From NCBI RefSeq assembly GCF_003584015.1, contig NZ_QXFM01000146.1:1-44965 (forward strand): a DNA stretch of 44,965 nt, written 5' to 3'. Position 1 is the stretch's first letter; each line of letters starts with the position of its first letter. This DNA comes from Aurantiacibacter xanthus. Its GTDB lineage: Bacteria; Pseudomonadota; Alphaproteobacteria; Sphingomonadales; Sphingomonadaceae. Positions 19,421 to 43,383 of the stretch are shown here, piece after piece. A program made the translations under genes and the position numbers. Below the pieces are notes generated by a model, which did no database searches, was not told the DNA's origin, and saw nothing but the letters and a program-made list of their open reading frames with translations.

Positions 19421-21760
19421 TCAGGTATCGAATTTGGGAAGAGCGAGGCCGCGCAGGCGCAGGGCGTTGCCGATCACCGATACCGAAGACAGGCTCATCG
19501 CTGCGGCCGCGATCATCGGGTTCAAAAGCAACCCGGTCCATGGATAGAGGACACCTGCTGCGACCGGTATGCCGAGCGCATTATACGCAAAGGCAAAGAA
19601 CAGGTTCTGCCTGATGTTGCGCATAGTGGCCCGAGACAGGACGAGCGCCTGAACAACGCCGACGAGGTCGCCGCGCACCAATGTCACGCCCGCGCTTTCG
19701 ATCGCGACATCGGTACCCGTTCCCATCGCGATGCCGACATGCGAAGCGGCAAGCGCGGGTGCGTCGTTTATGCCGTCGCCGGCCATAGCGACCCGGCGAC
19801 CCTCGCTCTTCAACTGCTCGATCTTGCGATGTTTGTCCTCGGGCGAGACGTTCGCTTCGACTTCGTCGATACCGACCTGGCTTGCTACCGCACGCGCGGT
19901 GGCTTCGCTGTCGCCGGTAAGCATCACGATCTTGATGCCGCGCTCATGCAACGCGGCAATAGCGGTGCGGCTGGTTGCCTTGATCGGATCGGCGACCGCG
20001 ATAAGGCCTGCCGGTGCCCCGTCCACGGCCACGAACATCACCGTCTGTCCGAGGCTTCGGCCTTCGTCCGCCGTTGACCGCCAGCCTTCTTCGAGCGCCC
20101 CTATACGCTCCATCATCTTTTCATTCCCGATCGCGACCAGGCGCTTGTCGACATTTGCCTGGATACCTTCGCCGGTCACGGATTCGATATCGGAAGCGTC
20201 GAGAATGGCAGCGCCCCTGTTTTGAGCCCCTTCCACGATCGCGTGGGCGAGCGGATGCTCGCTTCCTCTCTCAACGGCAGCGACAAGGCTCAGCAATTCC
20301 TGCTCGTCGAAATTTGGCTGCGGTTTTACGTCGACAAGATCAGGCTTGCCCCGGGTCAGCGTTCCGGTCTTGTCGACGACCAGCGTATCGATCTTTTCCA
20401 GCGTTTCGAGCGCTTCGGCGTTCTTGATCAGGATCCCGTGCTGCGCGCCCTTGCCGGTACCGGTCATGATCGACATCGGCGTCGCCAGTCCGAGCGCGCA
20501 GGGACACGCGATGATCAGAACGGCGACCGCGTTGACGAGCGCGTAGGCAAGGGCCGGTGCCGGTCCCCAGATGGCCCAGACGACAAAACTCACGATAGCG
20601 ACAAGGACGACGATGGGTACGAACCATCCGGTGACCTGGTCGGCGAGCCGCTGGATCGGTGCCCGGCTGCGCTGGGCCTCCGCGACCATCTGCACGATCT
20701 TCGAGAGCATGGTGTCCGCGCCGACCTGCGTCGCGCGCATGGTGAAGCTGCCGGTCTGGTTTACGGTGCCCCCGATCACGGGATCGCCCGCGCTTTTCTT
20801 GACGGGAATGGGTTCGCCACTGATCATGGATTCGTCGATGGCACTGCTTCCATCCTCGAGCGTGCCATCGACGGGGACCTTGTCGCCCGGACGCACGCGC
20901 AGCAGGTCCCCCGACGTCAATTCATCGAGCGGTACTTCGCGCTCGTCCCCGCGACCGAAGATCTTCATCGCGGTCGGGGGTGCGAGTTCGAGAAGCGCTC
21001 GCAAGGCGCTCGATGTCGATCCGCGCGCCTTGAGCTCGAGCACCTGCCCGAGCAGCACGAGGGTCGTGATAACCGCTGCGGCCTCGTAATAGACGCCGAC
21101 CCGGCCCGCATGATCGCGGAATGCCTCGGGAAAGATGTCCGGGGCGAGGGTTGCCACAAGGCTGAACAGATAGGCGATGGCGACGCCGAAGCCGATCAGG
21201 GTGAACATGTTGAGGTTCATGGTCCGGACCGATTGCAGCGCGCGGGTGAAGAAGGGCCAGCCGCCCCAAAGCACCACCGGAGTTGCCAGCAGGAGCTGCA
21301 GCCACTGCGCGATAGCGGGTTCGATGACCTGATCGAACGGTCGCGACGGGATCATGTCGCCCATCGCATAGGCGAAGAGCGGCAGCGTGAAGAGCGCGCT
21401 CCACCAGAACCTTCGCCGCATGTCGACGAGTTCGGGATCGGGGCCCTCGTTCAGAGTGACCGTTTCGGGTTCGAGGGCCATCCCGCATATCGGGCAAGAG
21501 CCCGGCCCCGGCTGCCGGATCTCCGGATGCATCGGACAGGTGTATATGGTACCTTCCGGGACATCCTCGACAGCATCGAGGTGCGCCTTCGAAAGATACA
21601 TCTCCGGATCCGCGCGGAACTTGTCGAGGCAGCGCGAGGAGCAGAAGTAATGGTCGCCACCCTCGTGTCGATCGACGAAGCGGGCGCCGTCCATCTTCAC
21701 GCTCATTCCGCAAACGGGGTCGGTCGCCATACCCTCGATTGCATTGTGCCCATCGCTCAT
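19421..21760 (-). CDS. copA: Copper-exporting P1B-type ATPase with YHS and HMBD N-terminal domains
   Basis: A 779-aa ATPase expected to pump Cu(I) from cytosol to periplasm. The N-terminus has a YHS-type domain ([13 protein letters not shown] and [10 protein letters not shown]) followed by a heavy-metal-binding domain ([22 protein letters not shown]) in place of the classical GMTCxxC HMA domain. The transport motif CPC is in [13 protein letters not shown] (about residue 418), the phosphorylation loop is [11 protein letters not shown] (about residue 460), and the hinge is [13 protein letters not shown] 21760 is 14 bases downstream of the multicopper oxidase stop, in the same operon, so cytosolic Cu(I) export is paired with periplasmic oxidation. 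Confidence 0.93.
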
Positions 21761-21773
21761 CTGTCGTTCTCCC

Positions 21774-23315
21774 CTAATTGGCCATCACCACGAACTGCCC
21801 CATCATGCCTGCGTCCTCGTGCTCGAGGATATGGCAGTGATACATGTAGGGAGTGTCGGGATCGGTATTTTCTTCGAACCGCAACAGCAGCCTGACCTGT
21901 TCACGCGGGTTGACGATTACGGTGTCCTTGAAGCCCGCCTCTTCCGCCCGCGGAGGCCGACCGTCCCGGTCGAGCAAGCGGAACTGCACGTTATGAATAT
22001 GAAAGGGATGGGCCATCATCGATGCGTTGGCGATTTCCCATATTTCCCACTGACCCACCGGTACGCGCTGATTGATGACGTCCATGTCCATGGTTTCGCC
22101 GTTGATCGACATGCCCCGGCCCATCATGCCCATATCGAGCACGAAACGGCGGCTGCGATCGGCGAGTGAGGGGTCTGGCGCAGCAAGCGCGGCCAGAGTG
22201 GGCGGGAGCATTACTGGAGTTGACGCGCCTGAGGGGCGCATATCGAGGATCGAAAACGTGCGCCCCTGCCTCTCGCGATCGGCCCGGTTTCCCATCATTC
22301 CGCCGCCCATCATACCCCCGCCTTGCCCGCCCATCATGCCCATGGCGTTAGCAGGGCTGCTGGCAATCAGCCGGAGCGGGCGCCCTTCGGAAAGATCGAC
22401 GATCACTTGTGCGCGTTCGCCTGGGGCAAGGGTAAGACTGCGAACCTCGCTTGGCGCGGCAAGCAGGCCGCCATCGCTTGCGATGAGTTGCATCGGACGA
22501 TCACCTTCGAGCGAGAAGGTGTAGAACCGCGCATTCGATCCATTGAGAAGCCGCAGGCGCAGCGGACCGGCGGCGGCCTCGAAAACGGCATTGGCCGTTC
22601 CGTTCACATAGATGCGCTCACCCATCACCCCCATCATCCGCGAGTGCATATCGAGCGGGTAAACAAGGCGGCCCGCGCCGTCGATCACGCGATCCTGCAC
22701 GACGAGCGGTATGTCATCTACACCGTACCGGCTCGGCAGATCGAGGCGATCCTCTTCCTCGTCGCGCACGTAGATCGGGGCAGCAAGTCCGGCATAGACC
22801 TGTGGTCCGGCCCGGCGATGCAGATGCGAATGATACCAGTATAACGAAGCGCGCTGGCGTATTTCGAAGGACGGGCTCCAGCGCTCACCGGGCCGTATGA
22901 GCTGGTGCGGCCCGCCATCCGCTGTGGCGGGAAGTTCGAAACCATGCCAGTGGACGGTCGCATCTTCGGCAAGCTTGTTGTCGATGTGAAAGCGAACCTG
23001 TTCGCCGCGGCGCATTTCGAGGGTCGGGCCGAGATAGGATGCGTCGATACCGATCGTCGGTGACGCCGTGCCGGGCACGAATTCTTTCTCGCCCGGTGTC
23101 AGGGACAGGCGAAAGACACGCTCGCCCCGTTCGATCGTTCCTGCCTGTAGCCGAGGTATGGCAAGAGGATTGCTTTCGCCTCCCTGATCGAGCGACATCC
23201 TGCTTTGCGTACCGCAACCCAGCAGCGGCAGCGCGGCGAAACCCGTCGCCGCGAGGCCGGCGCTCTTGATGAAGTCGCGGCGATCCTTAAAATCGGGCCT
23301 GTCGATACCTGGCAT
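21774..23315 (-). CDS. CueO-like multicopper oxidase
   Basis: A 513-aa periplasmic cuprous oxidase candidate. ATG 23315 (AGGTG upstream) gives a twin-arginine start ([25 protein letters not shown]) that also has a lipobox-like Cys. The copper ligands are visible: [26 protein letters not shown] and the C-terminal [17 protein letters not shown] Met-rich loop ([18 protein letters not shown]) in the middle resembles the CueO substrate-copper region. Distinct from the PcoA-type oxidase at 37638, this one sits between the Cus pump genes and the ATPase. The longer upstream frame to 23369 has no basis. Confidence 0.9.
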
Positions 23316-23373
23316 ATTCACCTGTTTTTGCGTGGGAGGCACCGGCGCAACCGAGCGCCTCCCACCCACCGTC

Positions 23374-23760
23374 CTATCGCGGCGTTACCGAGGTAACGAC
23401 GCTGCCTTCGGTTCCAGTACGAAATTCAAAGGCTATTCCCTCACCGACACTGACCTGTTCGAGGATTTGCGCGTCGGCTTCGAAGGTCATGGTCATCGCG
23501 GGCCATCCGATACTTTCGACCGGACCATGCTCGATGGTCACCGTGCCCGCCTCGGAATCGATGGCTGTAACCGTTCCCTCCGCGCTGGCGCTCTGCTCGC
23601 CGCCGGTCTCCTCCGCCATCGGCATTTCGCCTGACATGGGCATGCTGTCCGAGTTCGCCATGTCGTCTGACATCATGGTCTCTGAGCTGTCGTCTGCAGC
23701 GTCGCAGGCTGCAAGCGCCAGCGGTGCCGCGAGCAGGATCATGTAGGTTGGGGTACGCAC
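23374..23760 (-). CDS. cusF: CusF-like copper-binding lipoprotein
   Basis: A 128-aa lipoprotein: signal sequence then LAAC, an acidic Met-rich linker ([12 protein letters not shown]), then a CusF domain with WPAMTMTF, whose Trp and two Met form the Cu(I)/Ag(I) site in CusF. The start is GTG 23760, preceded by AAGGAG with 7-base spacing; the gene overlaps the end of cusA by 22 bases. It would hand periplasmic Cu(I) to CusB/CusA. Since CusB here has its own fused CusF domain, the operon encodes two CusF modules. Confidence 0.88.
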
Positions 23761-32067: not shown

Positions 32068-32484
32068 TCAATTCTCCTTTTCGCTCATGGTTTGATAGAC
32101 ATATTGGGCGGTGCAACTGATCATCAGGAACCCGGTAAGGGCGGCGATGCCGGAAATGGCGCGCATGTGCCCGGCGGGCAGAATATCGCCGAGACCGACC
32201 GTCGAGATCGTGATCAGCGCGAAGTAGTAATAATCCATCCAGCTGTTGATGACGTCCTTCTCGAGCCCGCCAAGGCCCCAGACGGAAGCGAGATACATTC
32301 CGCCCGCGAATATGCCGGCGATGACCAGATGGCTGAGAAGAACGAGGCTGGAGCCTGCAAGCAGCCGGAAATGGCGTGGGTCCTTGCCTGGCGGAGAAAC
32401 GGCTTTCGCCCCGCGCAGCATCAACATGTGGAAGTAGAGAGAGATCGCGAACAGCGCGAAACCGAGAAGCAGTGCCCAAATCAT
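32068..32484 (-). CDS. Small K+-channel-like protein (ion-channel pore domain)
   Basis: A 138-aa membrane protein with three hydrophobic segments and a pore loop ITISTVGLGDI; TVGLGD closely matches the potassium selectivity filter TVGYGD with Leu for Tyr. ATG 32484 overlaps the upstream stop (ATGA). No ligand-binding or RCK domain is present. In a metal-stress operon it could adjust membrane potential or ion balance, but this is inference. Confidence 0.8.
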   Translation of the reverse strand: MIWALLLGFALFAISLYFHMLMLRGAKAVSPPGKDPRHFRLLAGSSLVLLSHLVIAGIFAGGMYLASVWGLGGLEKDVINSWMDYYYFALITISTVGLGDILPAGHMRAISGIAALTGFLMISCTAQYVYQTMSEKEN

Positions 32485-33242
32485 AGCGAGACCCAACCCA
32501 GGGCCTTGGCACCCATCCAAAGACCCATACCGATCATGAACAGGTTCTCGGTCAACGATACGAAGCCGAGCGGCACGTTGCTGCCTCCGCCGACGCAAGC
32601 GCATTTCAACTCGCGCTTGTCGATGTAGACCGCCTTGAACACGCTGACCGCGCCGACCGTCCCTATGAACAGCGATACCGGAACCGAGACGATCGGAAGC
32701 GCGTGCGCGACCATTAATATTCCAGCCAAACCCTCACCGAACGGATATAGAAATCCATATCGTACCCAGCGTCGCGCCAGCAGATCGTAGTTGAGGAACA
32801 TGGTCGAGAAGCTGCGCACGTCCTGCAACTTCTGGATCGCGAGCAAGGCCATCGATAGGCTGACAAACCATTCGACCGCTTCCACCGTGAAAATCGTGTC
32901 GAAAACGTACCAGCTAATTGCCAGACCCAGGAGGAAAGCGACGCCGAAAATGGCAATGACGGGCTGGTAGCTGGTCTCGTCATCACCGGCTTGCGTTCTT
33001 TTCTTGCCGACATGCTCACGGACATCGTCGTAACCTCCGATGCGCTTCCCGCCGATGAAGGTTTGGGGGGTGGTTTCTACCCCATGCTGCTCTTTGAACG
33101 CATCGGTCTCCTCGCGCGTTTTCAAATGGTGGTCGTCCACCTCGAAACCTTCGCGTTTGAGCAAATCGACCGTTTTCAATCCATACGGACAAACGTGGTC
33201 CGGCATGACCATTCGGTAAACGGTGGCAGTTTTAGTCGTCAC
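32481..33242 (-). CDS. Glutaredoxin-MauE fusion protein
   Basis: A 253-aa fusion. The N-terminal glutaredoxin domain has an active site HVCPYG (one Cys, CPYG rather than CPYC) and the cis-Pro and GSH-binding segment TTPQTFIGGKRIGGYDD. The C-terminal half is a four-helix MauE/DoxX-like membrane domain with a CxC pair in LKCACVGG. I chose GTG 33242, which has GGAG seven bases upstream; the longer frame overlaps the permease gene and is low-complexity. MauE-like domains take part in disulfide exchange in the envelope, so the protein may pass reducing power from glutathione to periplasmic thiols under metal stress. Confidence 0.82.
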   Translation of the reverse strand: MTTKTATVYRMVMPDHVCPYGLKTVDLLKREGFEVDDHHLKTREETDAFKEQHGVETTPQTFIGGKRIGGYDDVREHVGKKRTQAGDDETSYQPVIAIFGVAFLLGLAISWYVFDTIFTVEAVEWFVSLSMALLAIQKLQDVRSFSTMFLNYDLLARRWVRYGFLYPFGEGLAGILMVAHALPIVSVPVSLFIGTVGAVSVFKAVYIDKRELKCACVGGGSNVPLGFVSLTENLFMIGMGLWMGAKALGWVSL

Positions 33243-33342
33243 GATATGCTCCGTCTTGAATTTCTTTTGATCCGCGAACTTGGCGCCTCGATCCTCGTCG
33301 GCTTTTGGTCGCTGCCTTTGCGCTCGTGTTCTACTAACGGGG

Positions 33343-34695
33343 TCACCGCCTCTCTTCCGCCGGTCTTTCTGAAGCGGAGTCCATCGCTTGCGAACGCCTG
33401 GACAAATAGAACCATTCGGCGATGAAAACGGCGGCAATGCCTGCGACCGCATAGGCGACGACCGCAGGGTCGGTTTTGAGCTTGGCGAAGGCAAAAGCTG
33501 TCAGGACTACGCTGTCCGCCACGAGTGCCGACCATAGCACCCAGGCACGCGCACCGATCTCTTCCCGCAAACCGCGCAGCACGCCCCAATGCACAAGCAT
33601 GTCCATTACGAGATAGAAAAATGCTCCGAGCGAAGCGATCCGCGACAGATCGAACAGGACCGCGAGCGTGCCGGCAATCACTACGGTATAGACCAGCATG
33701 TGACTGCGGATCGGTCCGCTCATGCCGAAATGGCTATGCGGGATCATCTTCATCTCGGTCAGCATCGTCAGCATTCGCGAAACGGCGAAAACACTGGCGA
33801 TGACACCCGAGGTCGTGGCTGCGATCGCGATTGCGACTGTGAAATAGAAGCCAAGCTCTCCGAGCGCGGGGCGCGCAGCTGCCGCAAGAGAGTAATCGCG
33901 CGCCTCGGCTATTTCTGAAGTGCTGAGGCTGGCGCCGACCGCCACCGCGACGAGAAGGTAGACGACCACGCATACTGCGATCGAAATGATAATGGTTCTG
34001 CCGACATTCCGATGCGGATCGATGATTTCGCCGCCGCTGTTGGTGATGGTGGTGAAACCCTTGAAAGCGAGGATCGAGAAAGCGACCGAAGCGAGCAACG
34101 CGTCGAGGCCCGAAAGCGCGACCGGCTCTGCGAAGGCACCGCCTGAAAATCCGGTGGCCCAGATCGCCGCAATTGCGAACAGGGCGATGCCGCCGATCTT
34201 GATTGCCGACATAATGAGCGAAAACCCGCTGACCGATTTGTTGCCGGCAGCATTCACGAAATAGGCGAAAACGATGAGGGCCAGTGCCGCGACGGAGACC
34301 AGAATGCCGCTGCTTTCGAGCCCAAAGGGCCGCAAGGCATAGGTCGCGAAGGTCCGAGCGACCAGGCTTTCGTTGATGACCATCGACAGCGCCATCAGGA
34401 GCGATGCCGATGCTGCAACGACGCCCGGTCCGTAAGCCTTCTGAAGGATCATCGCGATGCCGCCAGAGGAGGGCCAGCGGTTCGACATCTTGATGTAGCT
34501 GTAGGCGGCAAGCGAGGTAACCAGCGCGCCGACTATGAAAGAAAGCGGAAATAACGGTCCAGCCAGTTCGGCAATCTGGCCGGTCAGTGCGAAGATACCT
34601 GCGCCAATCATGACGCCGGTCCCCATCGCGACACCGCCCAGCAACGTTATCGAGCCCGCATTCTCGCTATGTTGATCGTCGCCATCTGTCTGCAA
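33343..34695 (-). CDS. APC-superfamily amino acid permease
   Basis: A 450-aa, about 12-helix permease with the N-terminal GVMIGAGIFALTGQIAELAGP signature of APC transporters. The best start is TTG 34695, with GGGGA upstream; the first in-frame ATG would cut the first helix. The substrate is unknown; a thiol-related amino acid such as cysteine or a glutathione precursor would fit the glutaredoxin gene that follows 100 bases later, but this is a guess. It is the first gene after the predicted ECF promoter at 34746-34769. Confidence 0.85.
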   Translation of the reverse strand: MQTDGDDQHSENAGSITLLGGVAMGTGVMIGAGIFALTGQIAELAGPLFPLSFIVGALVTSLAAYSYIKMSNRWPSSGGIAMILQKAYGPGVVAASASLLMALSMVINESLVARTFATYALRPFGLESSGILVSVAALALIVFAYFVNAAGNKSVSGFSLIMSAIKIGGIALFAIAAIWATGFSGGAFAEPVALSGLDALLASVAFSILAFKGFTTITNSGGEIIDPHRNVGRTIIISIAVCVVVYLLVAVAVGASLSTSEIAEARDYSLAAAARPALGELGFYFTVAIAIAATTSGVIASVFAVSRMLTMLTEMKMIPHSHFGMSGPIRSHMLVYTVVIAGTLAVLFDLSRIASLGAFFYLVMDMLVHWGVLRGLREEIGARAWVLWSALVADSVVLTAFAFAKLKTDPAVVAYAVAGIAAVFIAEWFYLSRRSQAMDSASERPAEERR

Positions 34696-34745: not shown

Positions 34746-34769
34746 TACGTTGGGCAGAGGTTCACCCCT
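34746..34769 (-). promoter_or_regulatory. Predicted ECF promoter for the APC/glutaredoxin-MauE operon
   Basis: On the minus strand, TTTAAGGGG with AGGG at 34769-34766 is followed, after exactly 16 bases, by CGTA at 34749-34746. The start codon of the permease is 51 bases downstream. The element and spacing are identical to those before cnrY, pcoA, the methyltransferase and the DUF2231 gene. Confidence 0.7.
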
Positions 34770-34852
34770 TAAAAAGATCCAGCATTTCTGACCGAGCTTT
34801 TGACTATCGCATTTCTCCTATTTCGTGCGTGCTGCAATCATACAAATTGGAA

Positions 34853-34887
34853 GGGTCCGGGACTGTGGGGGCAGCCAGCCCGGACCC
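34853..34887 (-). terminator. Terminator hairpin of the methyltransferase/DUF411 operon
   Basis: A perfect 9-bp stem GGGTCCGGG (34853-34861) and CCCGGACCC (34879-34887) lies 95 bases past the DUF411 stop. Read on the minus strand it is followed by a T-rich stretch (TTCCAATTTG). It insulates this operon from the APC operon promoter downstream. Confidence 0.6.
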
Positions 34888-34981
34888 GGCGAGAAGTTCG
34901 ACAGGCTTCTGTGTCGCTTCCCGCAATTAGTCCTCATCGCCTGCAACCTTTCATGCCGACGCATGGAGTGGCTTCACCCCC

Positions 34982-35446
34982 TTACGGAAAGGACGCGAAG
35001 ACGCTCTGTCCGGTTGGGCCAAAGGCGATGACGTCGTAAGGCTGGATCCGGTTTCCGGCCTCCATGCCGGGCGATCCCAGAGGCATTCCCGGAACCGCGA
35101 GGCCGGCAACGCCGGCGGGCCGTTCGCGCAAAAGCTTGGCGACGGCTTCTGCAGGCACGTGACCTTCGATGATGTATCCATCGACCTCCATCGTATGGCA
35201 TGACCATAACTCTTGGGGTACGCCCCGCGCGGTCTTGATCGCCGCCATGTCGTTGCTGTCGACCGATGCCACCTTCGTGTTCATCCCGTCTTCGACATGG
35301 CCTGCCCAGTTGAGACAGCACCCACATCCTGGATCGCGGAACATCGTATAGGTCGCTGCCTGAGCCACGTTCGAACAGGCTGCCAGCACGAGCAAGGCCG
35401 CGCCGCTAATCGATCGCCGGAGCAGCGAAGGCTTTTTCAAATTCAT
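34982..35446 (-). CDS. DUF411 (CopG-like) copper-binding periplasmic protein
   Basis: A 154-aa exported protein: N-terminal signal region with LAAC (possible lipobox), then the DUF411 motif DPGCGCCLNWAGHVE. Further conserved parts are WSCHTMEVDGYIIEGHVPAEAV and VPGMPLGSPGMEAG. CopG of copper operons is a DUF411 protein with a thioredoxin-like fold and a Cys-bound copper cluster, so periplasmic copper binding or redox chemistry is likely. ATG 35446 overlaps the methyltransferase stop by 4 bases. Confidence 0.85.
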   Translation of the reverse strand: MNLKKPSLLRRSISGAALLVLAACSNVAQAATYTMFRDPGCGCCLNWAGHVEDGMNTKVASVDSNDMAAIKTARGVPQELWSCHTMEVDGYIIEGHVPAEAVAKLLRERPAGVAGLAVPGMPLGSPGMEAGNRIQPYDVIAFGPTGQSVFASFP

Positions 35447-36147
35447 TGTGCAATTCCTTTCTTGTATCCGCGCCATAGCGAGATCGTCCCGGTTGCCGTC
35501 GGGAACCGTTGGAGCAGGCATGGCTCGGTGAAGATTTCGGCGAACAGTTTTTCGACTCCGCCGTCGGCGCTGGGCTGCGTGTCGCTTATGCCGTCAAGAG
35601 ACTGGACGGTCGCCCGGAAGAGGCTCCGCATGAGTGGGCTATCCTGCTTCATATAATCGGAGATCAACACGGTTCCGCCTGGCACGAGCAAGCTTTCGAT
35701 GGTTTCCAGGATTGTCTGCTTCTTGCGCAAGGGGACCTGGTGCAGGACGAGGCTGCTGACGATCTTGTTCGGCTGCCACCCTGCGGGTAGCTTGAGGCTT
35801 TCGAGAAAGCCATTGTGCCATTTCACGAGATCGGCTCCCGCGCCAAACTTGCGCCGCGCAAGCGCGAGCGCATCCGGGTCGGGTTCGACACCGATCAGAC
35901 CCGCTTCCGGACAATCCGTCATCAAGGCCTTGAGAAGAGTGCCGGTTCCGCTGCCAACATCGATCACCCGGTCGCCGGGGACAAGGTGCAGCTCTTCGAC
36001 AATCCTTTGGCGCCAGAGATGTTCGCGGGTGAACAGACCGATCGCCCGGTCGTAAAGCGGCGTCAGAAAGCTCTTGCCAAGAAGAGGCGTAAATTCGCCG
36101 TGATCTTCAGGTGCGGTGATATTGCTCACGAGTTGGTTTCCATTCAT
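35443..36147 (-). CDS. Class I SAM-dependent methyltransferase
   Basis: A 234-aa cytosolic methyltransferase with the SAM-binding motif VIDVGSGTGTLLKAL, the acidic residue at the end of strand 2 (IGVEPD), and SSLVLHQVPL and LVPGGTVLISDYM in later strands, as in Ubi/COQ5-like and arsenite-methyltransferase-like enzymes. The three conserved Cys of ArsM are absent. The substrate is unknown. It is the first gene behind the minus-strand ECF promoter at 36185-36208 and is coupled to the DUF411 gene, which suggests a role in metal stress. Confidence 0.82.
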   Translation of the reverse strand: MNGNQLVSNITAPEDHGEFTPLLGKSFLTPLYDRAIGLFTREHLWRQRIVEELHLVPGDRVIDVGSGTGTLLKALMTDCPEAGLIGVEPDPDALALARRKFGAGADLVKWHNGFLESLKLPAGWQPNKIVSSLVLHQVPLRKKQTILETIESLLVPGGTVLISDYMKQDSPLMRSLFRATVQSLDGISDTQPSADGGVEKLFAEIFTEPCLLQRFPTATGTISLWRGYKKGIAQ

Positions 36148-36184
36148 CCCGGGTTCGACCCGATTCTGACAGACCCGTCTCGAT

Positions 36185-36208
36185 TACGTATGGTGGTGGA
36201 CATTCCCT
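36185..36208 (-). promoter_or_regulatory. Predicted ECF promoter for the methyltransferase/DUF411 operon
   Basis: On the minus strand, TTTGAGGGA with AGGG at 36208-36205 is followed after 16 bases by CGTA at 36188-36185, 38 bases from the start codon at 36147. It stands back to back with the cnrYXH promoter, only 16 bases separating the two AGGG elements. Confidence 0.72.
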
Positions 36209-36224
36209 CAAAAAAAGAAGTTTA

Positions 36225-36248
36225 AGGGATTGTGCAGGCGAGCGCGTA
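36225..36248 (+). promoter_or_regulatory. Predicted ECF autoregulatory promoter of cnrYXH
   Basis: TTTAAGGGA with AGGG at 36225-36228 is followed after 16 bases by CGTA at 36245-36248. The cnrY-like ATG is 32 bases downstream. Autoregulation is normal for ECF sigma factors and supports assigning this motif to the sigma factor encoded at 37022. Confidence 0.75.
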
Positions 36249-36280
36249 TAGGACACGTGCAACCCACAGGAGTTTTTCGG

Positions 36281-36577
36281 ATGCGTGACAATCACTCTCT
36301 TGATGCGGTGCTCGGAACCCTTTCCGCCACCACCACCAGCGAGGTCCCCGCCGACTTCATGGATGGCGTTTGGCAGCGCGCCGGACAGCTTGGCGAAATC
36401 GCCGACCGACGCCGCAGGACGGCTCTGTTCGTCGGTCTGTTCGTCGTCGGGCTTGGAGCTGGCGCCGGAACGAGCGGTTGGCCCGGCGGCTATGGCACGT
36501 CTTCCGCGTCATTTGGCGAGAGTCTTATCCTCGGCGAACAGCTGTCCCCATCGGCGCTCCTCCATGTGGAGCAATAA
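36281..36577 (+). CDS. CnrY-like membrane anti-sigma factor
   Basis: A 98-aa protein with a cytosolic N-terminal part (about 45 residues, ending in RRRR), one membrane helix (TALFVGLFVVGLGAGAG) and a short periplasmic tail. Size, topology and gene order fit CnrY, the membrane anti-sigma factor that holds CnrH until released by CnrX. Sequence similarity in this family is low, so assignment rests mainly on context. ATG 36281 has CAGGAG at 36267-36272. The next gene starts 3 bases after its stop. Confidence 0.72.
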   Translation: MRDNHSLDAVLGTLSATTTSEVPADFMDGVWQRAGQLGEIADRRRRTALFVGLFVVGLGAGAGTSGWPGGYGTSSASFGESLILGEQLSPSALLHVEQ

Positions 36578-36580
36578 GGT

Positions 36581-37015
36581 TTGAAGACGACGCATATCGT
36601 TCTCGCGGTGCTTCTCGCAGCACTTGCAGGATGCCTCGGCGCGATTGCCGCGGATCGCTGGGCCAATCACGAGGCTGGCTCCGGCCTCCACGATTTCGTG
36701 CACGACGAGCTCACCCTGACGGCCGACCAGGAGCAGCGTCTCGATGCGCTCGAGGCCCGTTTCGCGGTCGAAAGGGCACGGCTCGAAGGATCGGCGCGCG
36801 CAGCCAATGCCCGGCTCGCCCAGGCGATGGAAAACGAGCACGAGTACGGTCCCGAGGTCTCGGCCGCGATCGACGAGGTGCATGCGCGCATGGGCGATCT
36901 GCAGAAGGCAACGGTGCGCCATGTCTTCGATATGCGTGAAATTCTCGAACCCGAGCAGCAACGCCAGTTCGACCGCAAGGTCTCCGACGCCCTGACCCGC
37001 GACCCACGCGACTGA
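36581..37015 (+). CDS. cnrX: CnrX-like periplasmic metal sensor
   Basis: A 144-aa membrane-anchored periplasmic sensor, near the 148 aa of CnrX. After an N-terminal anchor it is a four-helix protein. H37, H41, E58, H114 and M118 are spaced exactly like the nickel/cobalt ligands H42, H46, E63, H119 and M123 of CnrX (constant offset of five). Visible stretches are GLHDFVHDELTLTADQ and VRHVFDMREIL. The start is TTG 36581 with GGAG at 36568-36571. Metal binding would release the sigma factor through the CnrY-like protein. Most predicted targets are copper genes, which makes the true inducer uncertain. Confidence 0.88.
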   Translation: MKTTHIVLAVLLAALAGCLGAIAADRWANHEAGSGLHDFVHDELTLTADQEQRLDALEARFAVERARLEGSARAANARLAQAMENEHEYGPEVSAAIDEVHARMGDLQKATVRHVFDMREILEPEQQRQFDRKVSDALTRDPRD

Positions 37016-37021
37016 AGCGCC

Positions 37022-37582
37022 ATGTCGGGGGCGGGCGACAATCCGAATGAGGCCCTTGTCTCGCAGGTGAGGGCCGGTAACAAGCGGGCTTTCAGCAAGC
37101 TCGTCGAGCATGAAACCGGTCGGCTTCTCGCGCTCGCGACACGCATGCTTTCCTCTCCTTCTCAGGCGGAGGACGTTGTTCAGGACAGCCTCGCTTCGGT
37201 GTGGCTGACGCGCCATCGGCTCGATCCGGACAAGCCGATCGGACCCTATCTGACAACCGTCGTCCTCAACCGCTGCCGGGACCGTTTGCGCAGGCGCAAG
37301 GTCGCGGGCTTTTTCGGACTGTCGGGTGATGACGAACTCCATTCCATCGCCGACGATTTGCCGGGTCCTGAAGCGTTGGCCGTTTCCAGGGAAGAGCTCA
37401 ATCTCGTTCAGGCCGAGATCGCGCGAATGCCTGTAAGGCTGCGCGAAGCGCTTGTGCTCGTGACCATCGAGGGGCGTAGCCAGGCCGAGGCGGCCGATCT
37501 TCTCGGAACGACCGAAAAGGCGATCGAAACCCGCGTATACCGCGCGCGCAACAGACTAAAGGAGCGCTTCGAAAAACTTTGA
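37022..37582 (+). CDS. cnrH: ECF sigma factor, CnrH-like
   Basis: A 186-aa ECF sigma factor. Region 2 has AFSKLVEHETGRLLALATRML and the core-binding AEDVVQDSLASVW; region 4 has the HTH segment LREALVLVTIEGRSQAEAADLLG followed by ETRVYRARNRLKE. It lies 6 bases after the sensor gene. Its predicted promoter motif (AGGG-N16-CGTA) occurs five times in the window. The pcoA promoter overlaps its stop codon, so pcoAB may be transcribed both by read-through and from its own promoter. Confidence 0.92.
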   Translation: MSGAGDNPNEALVSQVRAGNKRAFSKLVEHETGRLLALATRMLSSPSQAEDVVQDSLASVWLTRHRLDPDKPIGPYLTTVVLNRCRDRLRRRKVAGFFGLSGDDELHSIADDLPGPEALAVSREELNLVQAEIARMPVRLREALVLVTIEGRSQAEAADLLGTTEKAIETRVYRARNRLKERFEKL

Positions 37583-37605
37583 GGGGTTGGATGGGCGCGC
37601 GCGTA
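37582..37605 (+). promoter_or_regulatory. Predicted ECF promoter of pcoAB
   Basis: TTTGAGGGG with AGGG at 37582-37585 and, after 16 bases, CGTA at 37602-37605. The -35 element overlaps the sigma-factor stop codon, and the pcoA ATG is 32 bases past the CGTA, the same distance as for cnrY. Confidence 0.72.
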
Positions 37606-37637
37606 AGTAACGGTGAACGCCACGTCAGGAGCCCTTT

Positions 37638-39446
37638 ATGATCGCCGTCAATCGACGCAAGTTTCTCGGAGCCGGAGCAGGAGGAATGGGTCTGCTCGGC
37701 CTTGCCGGGGCGATGCCTGCCTGGGCACGCGGCGCGGACATCCTCGCAGGTAACGCCCGCAAGGGGCTGGACGAGGTATCCGGCCCCAATATCGACCTCA
37801 CCGTTGCCCGATCGGCCTTCGCGACCGGCAACAGGCGCGGCGGAGCGATCGCCGTCAATGGCACTATCCCTGGTCCGCTGTTGCGATTGCAGGAAGGCAC
37901 GACCGTCCGGCTCAATGTCCATAACCAGCTCGAGGAAGATACCTCGATCCACTGGCACGGTCTGCTCGTGCCGTTTCAACTCGATGGAGTGCCCGGCGTG
38001 AGCTTCCCCGGTGTCAAACCGGGAGAGACCTTCACCGCCGAATTTCCGGTTCGCCAGTCGGGCACCTACTGGTGGCACTCGCATAGCGGCCTGCAGGAGC
38101 AGGCCGGGCATTACGGCGCGATCGTGGTCGACCCCGCCGGACCCGATCCGGTTCAGGCCGACCGCGAATATATCGTGGTGCTGAGCGAATTCAGCGAAAT
38201 GTCGCCTCACACGATTTTCGACAAGCTCAAGAAGGGCGAAGGCTACTTCAACTACAACCAGAACACCTGGACCGACGATTACCCACTTTCGGGCGAGGAT
38301 CGCCGGATGTGGGCGAAAATGCGCATGATGCCGACCGACATCCTCGATGTGTCGAGCGCGGCCTATACCTACCTTCTGAACGGCCATGGCCCGCTCGACA
38401 ATCTGGAATACCTCTTCCGCCCGGGCGAACGCGTGCGACTGCGCTTCATCAATGCCGGCGCCATGACCTTCTTCAATATTCGCATTCCCGGCCTGCCGAT
38501 GACCATCGTTCAGGCAGACGGGCAGAACGTCGAGCCGGTTGAGGTCGACGAGTTCCAGATCGGTGTGGCCGAGACCTATGACGTCGTCGTGACGCCGGGC
38601 GCGCAACAGGCCTACACGCTGGTCGCGGAGTCGATGGACCGCTCGGGCATGGGTATTGCCACACTCGCGAGCGCACCCGGCGCTCGCGCCGCCATTCCGC
38701 CGCTGCGCGATCCGCCGCTTCTGACCATGGCCGACATGGGCATGAGCGGCATGGACCACGGCTCGTCTGGCGATGCCGGCATGTCGGGCATGGACCACGG
38801 AAGTGGCGGCGACATGGCGGGGATGGATCATGGTTCGTCCGGCCAATCCGAGATGGCAGGCATGGCCGGCATGTCGGGGATGCAGATGCGCGACACGTCG
38901 CTTCTGCCGCCCGATGTGAAGGTCGGGCCCGGTCTCGACATGGTCTCGATGAACCCGGTCGACCGCATGGGCGATCCCGGCATCGGTCTCGCCGATGTGC
39001 CGCATCGTACGCTCGACTATCGCAAGCTCCGCGCTCTGACTCCACACCGCGAGGGCCGCACGCCGTCCCGGCGAATGGAAATTCATCTGACCGGCAATAT
39101 GGAGCGCTACATGTGGTCGTTCGACGGCAAGAAGTTCTCCGCCGTCTCAGACGAGCCGATCCGTTTCGCCTATAACGAGCGCGTGCGCGTGAAGCTCGTC
39201 AACGACACGATGATGGCGCACCCCATTCACTTGCACGGTCATTTCTTCGAGCTGGTCAATGGCGCGCCGGCCGATCGTCAACCGCTCAAGCACACGGTCA
39301 TCCTGCAGCCGGGTGGCAGCGCGCAGTTCGACCTGACGGCGGACGAGCCGGGCGACTGGGCCTTCCACTGTCACCTTCTCTACCACATGCATGCCGGGAT
39401 GTTTCAGATCGTCACGGTCGCCAATCCCGACGGGAGCGAAGCATGA
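37638..39446 (+). CDS. pcoA: PcoA/CopA-type multicopper oxidase
   Basis: A 602-aa periplasmic copper oxidase exported by Tat (NRRKFLGAGAGGMGLLGLAG then PAWA). Copper-ligand motifs are HWHGLLVPFQLDG, YWWHSHSG, HPIHLHGHFFELV and the C-terminal HCHLLYHMHAGMFQ. A Met/His-rich stretch of MDHG/MSGM repeats at about residues 360-420 likely loads copper. The length and Met-rich insert match the CopA/PcoA class, unlike the shorter CueO-like oxidase at 21774. CAGGAG precedes ATG 37638. Its stop overlaps the pcoB start (ATGA). Confidence 0.93.
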   Translation: MIAVNRRKFLGAGAGGMGLLGLAGAMPAWARGADILAGNARKGLDEVSGPNIDLTVARSAFATGNRRGGAIAVNGTIPGPLLRLQEGTTVRLNVHNQLEEDTSIHWHGLLVPFQLDGVPGVSFPGVKPGETFTAEFPVRQSGTYWWHSHSGLQEQAGHYGAIVVDPAGPDPVQADREYIVVLSEFSEMSPHTIFDKLKKGEGYFNYNQNTWTDDYPLSGEDRRMWAKMRMMPTDILDVSSAAYTYLLNGHGPLDNLEYLFRPGERVRLRFINAGAMTFFNIRIPGLPMTIVQADGQNVEPVEVDEFQIGVAETYDVVVTPGAQQAYTLVAESMDRSGMGIATLASAPGARAAIPPLRDPPLLTMADMGMSGMDHGSSGDAGMSGMDHGSGGDMAGMDHGSSGQSEMAGMAGMSGMQMRDTSLLPPDVKVGPGLDMVSMNPVDRMGDPGIGLADVPHRTLDYRKLRALTPHREGRTPSRRMEIHLTGNMERYMWSFDGKKFSAVSDEPIRFAYNERVRVKLVNDTMMAHPIHLHGHFFELVNGAPADRQPLKHTVILQPGGSAQFDLTADEPGDWAFHCHLLYHMHAGMFQIVTVANPDGSEA

Positions 39447-40756
39447 AAATTCGTATTGTCAGCCTGCTCGCATCGGTCGCAGCCGGCTCAGTTCTCGCCT
39501 CCCCCGCGGCGGCGCAGCATGCCGGTCATTCGCCGGCGGAGCCGCAGCAAAGCGCCGAGGCGCAGGCTGACGCGAAGACGAAGTGCGAGGAAGAAGCCGA
39601 GCGCCATCGCGCGATGGGGCATCCGGTTGCAGATGGAGCATGCGAACCGGCTGCTCAACCTGAAGCCGCCATGGACCACTCCGAGATGGATCACTCAACC
39701 ATGGATCATGGTTCGATGACCGCTCGGGATGGCCATTCTAGCATGACAATGCCTGTGGACGCTGCCCGTCCACAGGCATCGCCCGAAAGTCATGAGGGAA
39801 TGGATCACGGCTCGATGCCGCAGGGCAAGCCTGCCGAAGGCGCGATAGATCATTCGCAGATGAATCACGGCGAGATGGGACAGGCGGAAGCCAGTTCGTC
39901 GATGGACCATGGGCAGATGGATCACAGCCAGATGAACCATGGGGAGACGCCTTCGCAGGACATGCAGGGCATGGACCATTCGGCGATGCAGATGGGCGCG
40001 GACGATGATATCCCGCTGCTGCCGCCTCCTCCAGAAGCCGGGAGCGGCCCCGCGCGCGCGGCGGTCGCCATCTGGGGCGAGGAAGCCATGAACGAAGCGC
40101 GCCGCGAGCTTGTCCGCGAGACCGACGGAGGAATGCGCTTATGGTTTCAAGGCGATCGGCTCGAATACCGCGCCCGCGAGGGGAAGGATGGATATCTGTG
40201 GGACATCCAGGGATATTATGGCGGCGACATCGACAAATTCTGGTTCAAGTCAGAGGGGGAGGGCAGCTTCGGCGAACCCATAGAAGGCGCCGAGGTTCAG
40301 GCGCTCTGGAGCCGCGCCATTGCGCCCTTCTTCGATTTCCAGGCGGGTGTTCGCCAGGACCTCACCGGTCCGGAGCGCACGCACGCGGTTATCGGCATAC
40401 AGGGTCTCATGCCGTACCGTTTCGAGGTCGATGCTGCGGCCTTCGTGTCCACCAAGGGCGATGTGACCGCGCGGATCGAGGGCGAACTCGACCAGCGCAT
40501 CACGCAGCGGTTGATCCTCCAGCCCAGAGCCGAACTCGCGCTTTCTGCGCAGGACATTCCCGAGCTGGGCATCGGTGCCGGTCTTGATCGGATCGAGGCG
40601 GGCCTGCGTCTACGCTACGAGTTCGCGCGCGAATTCGCACCCTATGTCGGCGTTTCGCAGGAATGGCGCATCGGCGACAGCGCGGATTTTGCGCGGGCCG
40701 CCGGAGAGGATCCGAGCGTCACCAGTTATGTCGTCGGCGTGCGATTCTGGTTCTGA
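39443..40756 (+). CDS. pcoB: PcoB/CopB outer-membrane copper-resistance protein
   Basis: A 437-aa outer-membrane protein. A signal peptide (ending SPAAAQ) is followed by a His/Met-rich region to about residue 185 with repeats such as MDHSEMDHSTMDHGSM, then the CopB beta-barrel domain: IWGEEAMNEARRELVRE, MRLWFQGDRLEYR, DIQGYYGGDIDKFWFKSEGEG, and a C-terminal Phe (VGVRFWF). The N-terminal part probably sequesters copper in the periplasm. It is translationally coupled to pcoA. Confidence 0.92.
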   Translation: MKIRIVSLLASVAAGSVLASPAAAQHAGHSPAEPQQSAEAQADAKTKCEEEAERHRAMGHPVADGACEPAAQPEAAMDHSEMDHSTMDHGSMTARDGHSSMTMPVDAARPQASPESHEGMDHGSMPQGKPAEGAIDHSQMNHGEMGQAEASSSMDHGQMDHSQMNHGETPSQDMQGMDHSAMQMGADDDIPLLPPPPEAGSGPARAAVAIWGEEAMNEARRELVRETDGGMRLWFQGDRLEYRAREGKDGYLWDIQGYYGGDIDKFWFKSEGEGSFGEPIEGAEVQALWSRAIAPFFDFQAGVRQDLTGPERTHAVIGIQGLMPYRFEVDAAAFVSTKGDVTARIEGELDQRITQRLILQPRAELALSAQDIPELGIGAGLDRIEAGLRLRYEFAREFAPYVGVSQEWRIGDSADFARAAGEDPSVTSYVVGVRFWF

Positions 40757-40780
40757 AATCTCAAAAAGGATAGAACTTCT

Positions 40781-41299
40781 ATGACCAAGACTTTGACACG
40801 CATCGCGGCGACTGCGTTTGTTGCCACGCTGATACCGCTGCCAGCCTTCGCGCAGCAGATGGACCACTCTTCCCATGCGAACCATCAGATGCACGCGATG
40901 GACGCTTCGGCGGACGATGTCGCGGGCGCTGAAGAAACCCTCAAGGCCTATCGCACCGCTCTTGAAGCGCGCGACGCGCAGGCAATGCGCGCGCTCTTCG
41001 CCGAGGACTCGGCGATCTTCGAGAATGGCAAGGCGGAAGGAAGCTTTGCCAATTACATGGAGCACCATTTGGGCCCCGAGCTCGACGCGATTGTGAGCTT
41101 CACCTTTACCGACCCCACGCTGACCGTCACCCGGATGGGGCACATGGCCCATGCCTATGAGACGTATGGCTATCGCATCGAACTTAGCGATGGCCGGGTG
41201 ATCGAGCGCGACGGCGTGGCGACATCGGTGCTTGCTCACGATGCGGACGGGTGGAGAATCGTCCAGTACCATTCCTCGTCGCGCGCGCCGCGCAACTGA
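40781..41299 (+). CDS. Exported SnoaL/DUF4440-like protein
   Basis: A 172-aa exported protein: signal peptide (ending PAFAQ), a short Met/His-rich segment (MDHSSHANHQMHAMD), then an NTF2-like (SnoaL/DUF4440) domain with ETLKAYRTALEARDAQAMRALFAEDSAIFENG and a final strand WRIVQYHSSSR. It is 24 bases after pcoB (AAAGGA upstream). The fold often binds small ligands, but the active role in copper resistance is unknown. The Met/His-rich N-terminus suggests direct copper contact. Confidence 0.8.
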   Translation: MTKTLTRIAATAFVATLIPLPAFAQQMDHSSHANHQMHAMDASADDVAGAEETLKAYRTALEARDAQAMRALFAEDSAIFENGKAEGSFANYMEHHLGPELDAIVSFTFTDPTLTVTRMGHMAHAYETYGYRIELSDGRVIERDGVATSVLAHDADGWRIVQYHSSSRAPRN

Positions 41300-41326
41300 T
41301 TACGGCTTTCGAAGAGGTAGCACCGG

Positions 41327-42058
41327 TTGGCAACGCCGTCGCTGAAGCTGCGCCTGCATGTGCTCGGCAGCAAGATCCACAAATGGCTGGCGATTTTCGT
41401 CGGTGTCCAGGTTCTCTTGTGGATGGGAACCGGCGCCCTCATGTCGTTTCTCGACCTGGAAGAAGTTCGCTCCGAACATGTCGTTTCGCGTGAACAAGAG
41501 GCGCTGCCCGCCGATGCCCCGCTTCCGGCCTGGGGCGCAAACGACGGTACTCTTGCGGCGGTGTCGACGCGTTCGCTCGACGGCGATGCTGTGACCGAGA
41601 TCCGAAAGGTCGACGGTAGCGTGAGCCTCCACGATCCGGTGACAGGGCGCAAACTCCCCCCCATCTCGGCTGCGACGGCAAGATCCATCGCGTTGCGCGC
41701 ATGGACCGGACCGCGCACGACGATCGAAGGCGCGCGGCTCGTTCACGAACCGGTGGGGACCGAGTTTCGCGGCCCTTTTCCGGCCTGGCAGGTCGCCTAT
41801 GCTGACGAGGCTTCGACGCGCCTCTACATCGATGCCAGCAGCGGTACCCTCGGGGCGGCGCGTAGTGATACTTGGCGCCTGTTCGATTTCATCTGGGGCC
41901 TGCACATCATGGACTGGACCGAGCGCGATCGTATCAACAGTTGGTGGCTTCTGCTGTTCGGCATTGGCGGCACGATCATAGCCCTGTCGGGTTTCGTCCT
42001 GCTGGCGAACCGGATGCCGAGGCTGCGTCGTCGCGCAAAGAAGAGCAAGCTCGCCTGA
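41327..42058 (+). CDS. PepSY-domain membrane protein
   Basis: A 243-aa protein with two membrane helices, one near each end (IHKWLAIFVGVQVLLWMGTGALMSFL and WWLLLFGIGGTIIALSGFVLLA), enclosing a periplasmic region with PepSY-like features (HDPVTGRKLPPIS, AWQVAYADEASTRLYIDASSGTL). It ends in a basic tail. The start is TTG 41327 with GAAGAGG upstream. PepSY-TM proteins occur beside metal-uptake or reductase genes; here it closes the pcoAB operon. Function unknown. Confidence 0.78.
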   Translation: MATPSLKLRLHVLGSKIHKWLAIFVGVQVLLWMGTGALMSFLDLEEVRSEHVVSREQEALPADAPLPAWGANDGTLAAVSTRSLDGDAVTEIRKVDGSVSLHDPVTGRKLPPISAATARSIALRAWTGPRTTIEGARLVHEPVGTEFRGPFPAWQVAYADEASTRLYIDASSGTLGAARSDTWRLFDFIWGLHIMDWTERDRINSWWLLLFGIGGTIIALSGFVLLANRMPRLRRRAKKSKLA

Positions 42059-42080
42059 GCCCATGGGGCTAATGTGCGTG

Positions 42081-42105
42081 GGCGAACGCCTTACCCTCGT
42101 TCGCC
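42081..42105 (+). terminator. Stem-loop after the pco operon
   Basis: A perfect 8-bp stem GGCGAACG (42081-42088) and CGTTCGCC (42098-42105) with a 9-base loop, 22 bases after the PepSY gene stop. No T-run follows, so it may be a weak or Rho-assisted terminator. Confidence 0.45.
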
Positions 42106-42215
42106 AGGCCGAACGCGGCCAGGAGCCGAATGCGTTCGACGATCGCGATGGTGCCGCCATCAGACGTGATACGGCGGACGCACATCTGTCGCGCTAATAC
42201 CATCAAATTAATGCG

Positions 42216-42239
42216 AGGGGCACGCGGCTGCCGTGCGTA
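42216..42239 (+). promoter_or_regulatory. Predicted ECF promoter of the DUF2231 operon
   Basis: GAGGGG with AGGG at 42216-42219 and, after 16 bases, CGTA at 42236-42239. The upstream TTT of the other four sites is replaced by TGC, so this is the weakest member. The DUF2231 ATG is 50 bases beyond the CGTA. Confidence 0.58.
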
Positions 42240-42289: not shown

Positions 42290-42961
42290 ATGAAAGCCCC
42301 CTCATTTCTGGCGCTGCTCGCCGCAAGCCTGCTCTTCGTCGGACCCGTTCAGGCTCATGGCGACGAAAAACATGGCGAAGAGGCGAGCGCCGCGCCTGCT
42401 GCCACCAATGGCGATGCGCATGACGAGGCGGCCATGGCGCAGATGGGCGAGACTGCGGATGCTGGCGAGTCCTCCGGCGCGCACGATGAAGCGGGCGCAG
42501 CCCATGACGAGGCCGGTGGCCATGCGGATGAGGGCGAAACCGGCGTCATGGCCGTACTGAAGAAGTTGCATCCGGCAACGATCCATTTCCCGATCGCCTT
42601 GTTTCTCATGGCTGCGGCCACCGAATTGTTCGTGATGCGCCGGAAAGGAGCGGGCCTGGAAAGTGCGGTGCGCGTACTCGTCTACGGCGGAGCGGCCGGT
42701 GCGGTGATAGCTGCACTATTCGGATGGTTTCACACCGGGCTGTGGTTCGGCGGCGATACCGTCATGCAGGTGCATCGATGGAACGGTTTGCTGATCGCGG
42801 TTCTCGGTATTGCGATGGCATACCTCGCGAGCAGGCCGAGCCAGAGCCGCGCATGGTTGCGTACGGCTATCTTCTCGATGGCGGCACTTATTCTGGTGCA
42901 GGGCTTCCTTGGCGGCGAGCTCGCGCATGGGCCAAACCATCTTGGAATTTCCTGGCTCTGA
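42290..42961 (+). CDS. DUF2231-type membrane protein with His/Asp-rich N-terminus
   Basis: A 223-aa protein starting at ATG 42290 (GGGAG at 42274-42278). A signal peptide (ending VQAHG) leads into an about 70-residue periplasmic stretch rich in His, Asp, Glu and Ala with AHDEAG repeats. Four helices follow, with LHPATIHFPIALFLMAAATELF typical of DUF2231 and two further His (FHTGLWFGG, VHRWNG). DUF2231 proteins are often next to copper or haem genes; function unknown. It is the first gene behind the fifth predicted ECF promoter. Confidence 0.8.
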   Translation: MKAPSFLALLAASLLFVGPVQAHGDEKHGEEASAAPAATNGDAHDEAAMAQMGETADAGESSGAHDEAGAAHDEAGGHADEGETGVMAVLKKLHPATIHFPIALFLMAAATELFVMRRKGAGLESAVRVLVYGGAAGAVIAALFGWFHTGLWFGGDTVMQVHRWNGLLIAVLGIAMAYLASRPSQSRAWLRTAIFSMAALILVQGFLGGELAHGPNHLGISWL

Positions 42962-42975
42962 AGGAGTTGAACAGC

Positions 42976-43383
42976 ATGCGTACTTCCAGATTAAAAGCGG
43001 CGTTCGGGATTCTCGCGATCGTGCCACTAGTGTCCGCTCTTGCTGCTTGCGACGAAGCGCAGGAGAGCACACCGACCTCAGAGGTGTCGCCGATGGGCGA
43101 AGCGACGGTGATGCCCGGCACGGCACCCGAGGGTGGTCTTGCAGACCCGGCAACCTCTTCCTCCGAAAGTGAGTCAGTGGCTGCGCGGCAGGACGCTCTT
43201 TCGAAAGGCGATGCTGCCGCGCCTGCGTCTCGGCGAGCCGCCTCACCGGCACCACGCGTAATTGCCACATCCGCCGCGCCGGCACCGCGCGCGCAACCCG
43301 AGAGCGAGGCGACCCCGCCCGCCGATCCCCATGCCGGCCATGACATGTCCTCGATGGCCGATCACGACATGGAAGGCATGTAA
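42976..43383 (+). CDS. Putative lipoprotein with C-terminal His/Met tail
   Basis: A 135-aa putative lipoprotein: signal sequence and lipobox (LVSALAAC), a long disordered Ser/Ala/Pro-rich middle, and a C-terminal tail HAGHDMSSMADHDMEGM resembling the copper-binding repeats of PcoA and PcoB. AAGGAG precedes ATG 42976, 15 bases after the DUF2231 stop. It is probably a periplasmic copper-binding tether. No globular domain is visible. Confidence 0.72.
   Translation: MRTSRLKAAFGILAIVPLVSALAACDEAQESTPTSEVSPMGEATVMPGTAPEGGLADPATSSSESESVAARQDALSKGDAAAPASRRAASPAPRVIATSAAPAPRAQPESEATPPADPHAGHDMSSMADHDMEGM

Follow-up and report, generated by a model that had tools for sequence, protein, structure and literature searches.

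Genes and Motif Sites at the Locus

The window, a 44,965-nt stretch of Aurantiacibacter xanthus contig NZ_QXFM01000146.1 (own genome 4.38 Mb), contains a copper island in which genes resembling cnrY, cnrX and cnrH, the last encoding an extracytoplasmic function (ECF) sigma factor, are followed by pcoAB. The three genes lie in the order Y-X-H at 36281-37582, with the sigma gene last. The sequence AGGG-N16-CGTA occurs before these genes and before several neighbouring operons. From the comparisons described below, these sites very probably serve as promoters for an ECF system of the CnrYXH kind, of a copper type. The genes and sites are listed in Table 1.

A scan of the window found exact matches, in the correct orientations, at all five places where the first-pass annotation had put the motif. 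The longer form TTTRAGGGR was counted in four of the five, as described there; the DUF2231 site (ATGCGAGGGG) is the one without it. The leaders from CGTA to the start codon, given earlier as 32-50 bases, measured 32 (cnrY, by hand), 32 (pcoA), 37 (methyltransferase), 50 (APC permease, TTG start) and 50 bases (DUF2231). The first base of the pcoAB site is the final base of the sigma gene stop codon. The regulon of five members proposed at that stage was too small, as the window holds a sixth, less certain site and a second cluster in the same genome holds three more.

The six matches in the window compare with 0.50 expected, and none of 100 shuffles reached six. Among 35 hand-picked upstream regions of 130 bases, the motif was the top dyad (6/35, including the sixth site; next best, four). 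Sites were also scored with a matrix trained on 45 exact AGGG/CGTA sites from other loci, excluding the own genome, L010-L038 and L044. The six sites scored 15.7-27.7 bits and the best score elsewhere in the window was 7.3 bits, a gap that this choice of training sites partly builds in. The same ceiling of 7.3 bits agrees with the earlier statement that the czc, dmeF and MerR modules have no sites before them.

Table 1. Motif sites and genes of the island, with positions in the window.
Feature	Positions	Strand	Sequence or basis
Site before cnrYXH	36225..36248	+	TTTAAGGG-N16-CGTATAG; matrix 26.3
Site before methyltransferase-DUF411, divergent	36185..36208	-	TTTGAGGG-N16-CGTA; matrix 24.8
Spacer between back-to-back -35 elements	36209..36224		16 bp, 81% A+T
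Site before pcoAB	37582..37605	+	Exact match; matrix 27.7
Site before APC permease/glutaredoxin-MauE operon	34746..34769	-	TTTAAGGG-N16-CGTA; matrix 20.5
Site before DUF2231 operon	42216..42239	+	GCGAGGGG-N16-CGTA; matrix 25.7
Sixth candidate site, within cusF-like gene	23418..23441	-	Exact match; matrix 15.7 bits
cnrY-like small protein, presumed anti-sigma	36281..36577	+	Position; 98 aa, one hydrophobic segment by eye
cnrX-like periplasmic metal sensor	36581..37015	+	Metal_resist; five ligand residues conserved
cnrH-like ECF sigma factor, 186 aa	37022..37582	+	Best solved-structure match CnrH 4cxf
pcoA/copA multicopper oxidase	37638..39446	+	TIGR01480
pcoB/copB outer-membrane protein	39443..40756	+	PF05275
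SnoaL-like protein, likely within pcoAB unit	40781..41299	+	Pfam
PepSY_TM protein, likely within pcoAB unit	41327..42058	+	Pfam
DUF2231 membrane protein	42290..42961	+	Pfam
Small ORF after DUF2231, His/Met-rich tail	42976..43383	+	Without Pfam match
Methyltransferase	35443..36147	-	Pfam
DUF411 protein	34982..35446	-	Pfam
APC-family permease	33343..34695	-	Pfam
Glutaredoxin-MauE fusion	32481..33245	-	Pfam
cusF-like copper-binding protein with embedded site	23374..23742	-	PF11604, E 7.3e-25
Multicopper oxidase downstream of embedded site	21774..23315	-	Pfam
Heavy-metal P-type ATPase, YHS and HMBD domains	19421..21760	-	Pfam

Conservation of the Motif in the Genome and in Relatives

The own genome contains 39 exact matches to AGGG-N16-CGTA: the six of the window, three in a single stretch of contig C103 and 30 elsewhere. 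The extended form, defined as TTNRAGGG-N16-CGTA, has five matches, none of them outside two copper clusters with cnrYXH: four are in the window and one is in C103. The DUF2231 site and two of the C103 sites do not have it. The C103 stretch (L009, G000:C103:10000-22000) is a second, diverged cluster with cnrYXH-pcoAB and DUF2231, DUF411-like and Cu-ATPase genes. Its sites lie before cnrY, before pcoA and before a divergent DUF2231-DUF411-Cu-ATPase series, and its sigma factor and X are 55% and 60% identical to those of the window. Four of the background matches share the form AGGGGAG-NNNN-GTGGMTCAGCGTA (G000 C25:26701, C63:6415, C106:113834 and C128:30582), and are perhaps a dispersed repeat.

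Related loci were collected with X as the query (53 fetched), and X is thus present in each by construction. In 29 of the 53 (L010-L038), from many genera, X is 94-99% identical to that of the window, which suggests a recent horizontal spread of the island. Around cnrYXH orthologues of related genomes, where the first-pass annotation expected the motif to recur, the 16-base spacer was strongly enriched: across 55 loci there were 236 sites at N16 and 1-37 at each other spacer of 8-25 bases. With the boxes in reversed order, N16 gave one site. With 29 near-identical loci, the 236 sites include many copies. The 24 less similar loci alone (L009 and L039-L061; L044 is a 93% fragment) gave 86 sites at N16 against 1-10 at other spacers.

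From 256 sites in 64 loci, we retained 58 that were less than 75% mutually identical over 48 bases. Their consensus was TTTTGAGGGGT-N13-GCGTA(T/A). The boxes were retained in this set, and 14 of the 16 spacer columns held only 0.01-0.41 bits. Four of the 58 (L041 7297, L045 11529, L054 4062 and L071 6399) were judged not to be in promoter positions and entered neither the matrix nor the position counts. In the remaining 54, positions that the pattern does not select were conserved too: T at -2 (43/54), G at -1 (47/54), T at +5 (37/54) and G at +19 (44/54). The tenth base after CGTA (+33), likewise unselected, was A in 28/54.

The extended form was also counted in 199 genomes of the family, grouped by their best CnrX match. 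Genomes with a strong match (E at most 1e-50; 34 genomes) averaged 3.18 extended sites, those with a weaker match (47) 1.17, and those with none (118) 0.31. For the reversed pattern, the averages were 1.32, 1.43 and 1.48, respectively.

The Y, X and H Proteins

X is homologous to CnrX and NccX (phmmer E 4.1e-22 to CnrX chain 3zg1 and 4.6e-22 to NccX, PDB 4clv). The metal ligands of CnrX, which we take to be H42, H46, E63, H119 and M123 (the chain numbering agrees with the alignment), are all matched: equivalents of H42, H46 and E63 were present in 67/67 loci, and those of H119 and M123 in all 65 loci that reach them. H was found in 65 of the 67 loci having X, the two misses being contigs that end inside X. 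Among solved structures, H best matched CnrH (4cxf, E 3.9e-28; next, 3.4e-15). It has one cysteine and ends seven residues past the region-4 match.

Y had no Pfam match. By eye, it agrees with CnrY only in size, in a single hydrophobic segment and in an SPxxLL-like tail. This C-terminus reads LSPSALLHVE (e.g., 36281-36577), and the two Cupriavidus CnrY proteins compared end in SPFGLLIG. A shared contact of the tail with X is possible.

Placement of the Sites and Back-to-Back Promoters

The position of sites relative to genes was selective. We counted a site when it lay at most 150 bases upstream of a start, with starts extrapolated from tblastn. Starts less than 170 bases from a locus end were skipped, L068 and L077, from Cupriavidus, were unscored, and Y genes missed by tblastn are not among the 56 counted. 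A site was present before cnrY in 55/56 loci, before pcoA in 54/60, before DUF2231 in 51/54 and before the methyltransferase in 35/37. The picture was mixed for the APC gene (35 of 52 loci with an orthologue) and for DUF411 (3/57: L046, L048 and L070, in the last of which DUF411 faces cnrY). No site was found before X (0/65), H (0/63), pcoB (0/59), SnoaL (0/40), PepSY (0/40) or glutaredoxin-MauE (0/20) in the loci scored. Among annotated plasmid loci, sites also precede copC (L071, L072 and L079) and, in L071, a four-helix copper-binding protein and DUF305. In L076, sites precede a multicopper oxidase and a copper-binding protein. An extra site at L039 16327, with equivalents in L040-L043, lies before an uncharacterised ORF of 132-146 aa; the L039 ORF had no Pfam match.

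The two divergent sites at cnrY form a back-to-back pair in 56/65 loci. The gap between the paired AGGG blocks was 10-17 bp in 55 of these 56 and 26 bp in one, and its A+T content ranged from 50 to 87% among distinct sequences. Two polymerases would be expected to crowd each other at such a pair. The pair was absent in nine loci (L024, L054, L069, L072, L073, L074, L075, L076 and L078); L024 is a contig beginning near the site, and L074 and L075 are from Caulobacter. A different arrangement was seen in L046 and L048, where tandem overlapping sites 26 bp apart precede cnrY (9631 and 9657). There, the -10 (CGTA) of the first site merges into the -35 (TGAGGG) of the second.

A Candidate Sixth Site within a cusF-like Gene

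The sixth match lies upstream of a multicopper oxidase and a Cu P-type ATPase, within the coding sequence of the cusF-like gene, and we somewhat favour the view that it is a genuine candidate promoter. The competing view, to which we assign the smaller but still substantial share of likelihood, is a chance match kept by protein-level constraint or by shared cusF descent. The coding location and the missing T-tract speak for chance. The site is exact in 12 CusF homologues (65.7-76.3% protein identity) and in near-identical ones, and synonymous comparisons in those 12 were identical more often inside the site (87/107) than outside it (275/516), which argues for a promoter; several of the homologues are near-identical and the comparisons are non-independent. 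The oxidase is downstream in nine of the 12 and was not found in the remaining three genomes; in L097 and L100 (the latter from the same genome as L085), which have no oxidase, a Cu-ATPase-like gene follows by eye. Against this, five CusF homologues at 47-58% identity (L094, L095, L098, L099 and L101) do not have the site, and in L094 and L095 a Cu-ATPase-like gene is still next downstream by eye. These last two loci lowered our confidence in the site and in the broader evolutionary reading given below. Separately, an inverted repeat (GTGGGAGGC/GCCTCCCAC) was noted by eye at 23332-23365, between cusF and the multicopper oxidase, and is perhaps a terminator or attenuator.

Interpretation and Alternatives

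The proposal of the first-pass annotation that the CnrH-like sigma factor reads the motif is well supported, and very likely correct: site counts track CnrX, placement is selective, and the boxes are shared with Cupriavidus. The sequences show the motif with its placement, specificity and conservation, and the homology of X and H; the role of H as reader, its release, the operon boundaries and the metal are inferred. By analogy with CnrYXH, Y (the presumed anti-sigma factor) and X (the periplasmic sensor) would hold H at the membrane, and a metal signal at X would free it. RNA polymerase with H would then read TTTTGAGGGGT as the -35 element and GCGTA(T/A) as the -10 element across a largely unconserved spacer, and transcription would begin approximately 9-10 bases after CGTA. 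H would thereby transcribe its own operon, a feedback, along with the back-to-back operon whose -35 is 16 bp away. It would also drive pcoAB from a promoter beginning on the sigma stop codon, the APC/glutaredoxin-MauE and DUF2231 operons and, possibly, the multicopper oxidase/Cu-ATPase operon from the site within cusF.

Several results weigh against this assignment. In a dyad search of the whole window (851,968 combinations of 4-mer, spacer of 10-22 and 4-mer), the motif ranked only about 24th (p 1.3e-5, not significant when corrected), and the window alone is therefore suggestive, not proof. The extended site is absent in 3 of the 34 genomes with strong CnrX (G100, G135 and G146), and pcoA lacks a site in six of the 60 loci. 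The exact motif is also absent from the Caulobacter relatives L074 and L075 despite their Y, X and H; by eye, these have TGCGGG-N17-CGTATAG. The spacer is 16 bases here and 17 in Cupriavidus. Y gave nothing convincing against the PDB (best E 0.72, a ribosomal protein), and its profile reached only E 0.4 against two Cupriavidus CnrY proteins (one row, L073, being misframed). Finally, because another sigma factor, 55% identical, is encoded in this genome, sequence alone does not assign a reader to every site; the two factors probably cross-talk.

One alternative accepts that the CnrH-like sigma factor reads these promoters and places the signal elsewhere: nickel or cobalt would be sensed, and the copper genes would respond as a by-product. 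X retains all five CnrX ligands, and the sensed metal is for this reason not fixed as copper. CopA, CopB and CopC are also up in nickel-adapted Sphingobium sp. ba1 (PMC5557971; the link to the motif is putative, and statements on this and the other cited papers refer to the available portions of their text). In seven annotated alphaproteobacterial loci (L069-L072, L076, L078 and L079), however, the system lies among copper genes and H is not directly followed by a gene for a nickel/cobalt pump, and we consider a nickel or cobalt signal unlikely, if still a serious contender. In L076, two hypothetical ORFs separate H from a TolC/RND operon of unassigned substrate that begins ~1.4 kb downstream.

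It is improbable that the main reader of the motif is a different sigma factor, EcfG or a further ECF factor, with the CnrH-like protein only a co-regulated neighbour. CGT at the -10 is common among ECF promoters, EcfG reads GGAAC-N16/17-CGTT, and genomes of this kind usually contain several ECF factors. Yet nearly all the 118 genomes without CnrX should contain EcfG, and they average 0.31 extended sites against 3.18 in those with a strong match. The near-constant site before cnrY (55/56) and the occurrence of both boxes in Cupriavidus promoters reported to be CnrH-dependent are further points against it. That the conservation merely reflects one recently spread island, with the motif hitchhiking unselected as shared DNA, would explain the many copies among the 236 sites (L010-L038) and is nevertheless highly improbable, as the 58 dissimilar sites keep their boxes with most of the spacer lost, N16 stands at 86 against 1-10 even when only the 24 less similar loci are counted, and sites are missing before X, H and pcoB within these islands.

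Taking the sites as promoters of the CnrYXH-type system, a wider and tentative picture, to which we give slightly less than an even chance, is that a nickel/cobalt-type periplasmic sensor whose five-residue metal site is unchanged now serves as the switch of an entire regulon for copper detoxification and was spread by mobile islands through the Sphingomonadales. H would read a set of similar promoters, among them a conserved back-to-back pair around a common A/T tract and one within the cusF coding sequence, and two diverged copies of the system, present in the same cell, would use one promoter language. For a copper-linked ECF system, the analysis supplies a concrete promoter signature and a list of targets. 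Through this signature, DUF2231, DUF411 and APC/glutaredoxin-MauE, whose roles are unclear, can be linked to metal stress. Two questions are raised: how a copper regulon can work with a CnrX-type site whose ligands are unchanged, and how sharing operates between two ECF promoters that stand back to back, 10-17 bp apart.

Comparison with Known Systems

Among the literature matches listed, which cover open-licence papers in their available portions, none described a CnrH-type copper regulon or this motif in sphingomonads. A 2023 survey of copper signalling names CorE as its copper ECF factor, and CnrX is absent from its main text as available (PMC10141476). CorE of Myxococcus xanthus resembles the present system in that genes for a copper ATPase and a multicopper oxidase are controlled by an ECF sigma factor (PMC10141476). 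A CorE-type mechanism was rejected, since CorE is reported to act via a Cys-rich C-terminal extension and H lacks one. SigF-NrsF of Caulobacter crescentus is likewise an alphaproteobacterial ECF system induced by copper (PMC8224329). It was set aside as a model: the SigF targets differ (DUF2282, DUF692 and DoxX), and no CnrX-type sensor is mentioned in the available text (PMC8224329). SigAb of Acinetobacter is copper-responsive and has anti-sigma genes in its operon (PMC12153292), but its direct regulon comprises sigAb, relA and an sRNA, with metal-resistance genes affected indirectly.

The closest likeness is to CnrYXH/CnrCBAT of Cupriavidus metallidurans, which shares the order Y-X-H, a homologous X with the same five ligands, an H whose nearest solved structure is CnrH, and sites ahead of both Y and the gene that follows H. 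The systems differ in that pcoAB follow H here, not the RND nickel/cobalt pump genes cnrCBA of cnr/ncc; in that Y is not recognisably related by sequence; and in that more operons are included and a back-to-back promoter stands at cnrY. NccYXH, whose NccX is matched by X, differs in the same ways, and in a cnr/ncc-like cluster of Cupriavidus sp. USMAA2-4 (L077), AGGG-N17-CGTA occurs both ahead of Y and after H. For cnrY and cnrC of Cupriavidus, the published starts precede the genes by 24 and 25 bases (PMC9045368), the cnrC start also being placed downstream of cnrH (PMC4803752); the available text of the former gives start positions and not the cnr promoter boxes. In the cnrY and cnrC promoter regions of strain FDAARGOS_675 (L068; not CH34) we found AGGG-N17-CGTATA. 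Its -35 and -10 boxes, in promoters reported to be CnrH-dependent, are identical to those of A. xanthus, and the reported starts fall on the ninth base after CGTA (hand count on L068, ± one base).

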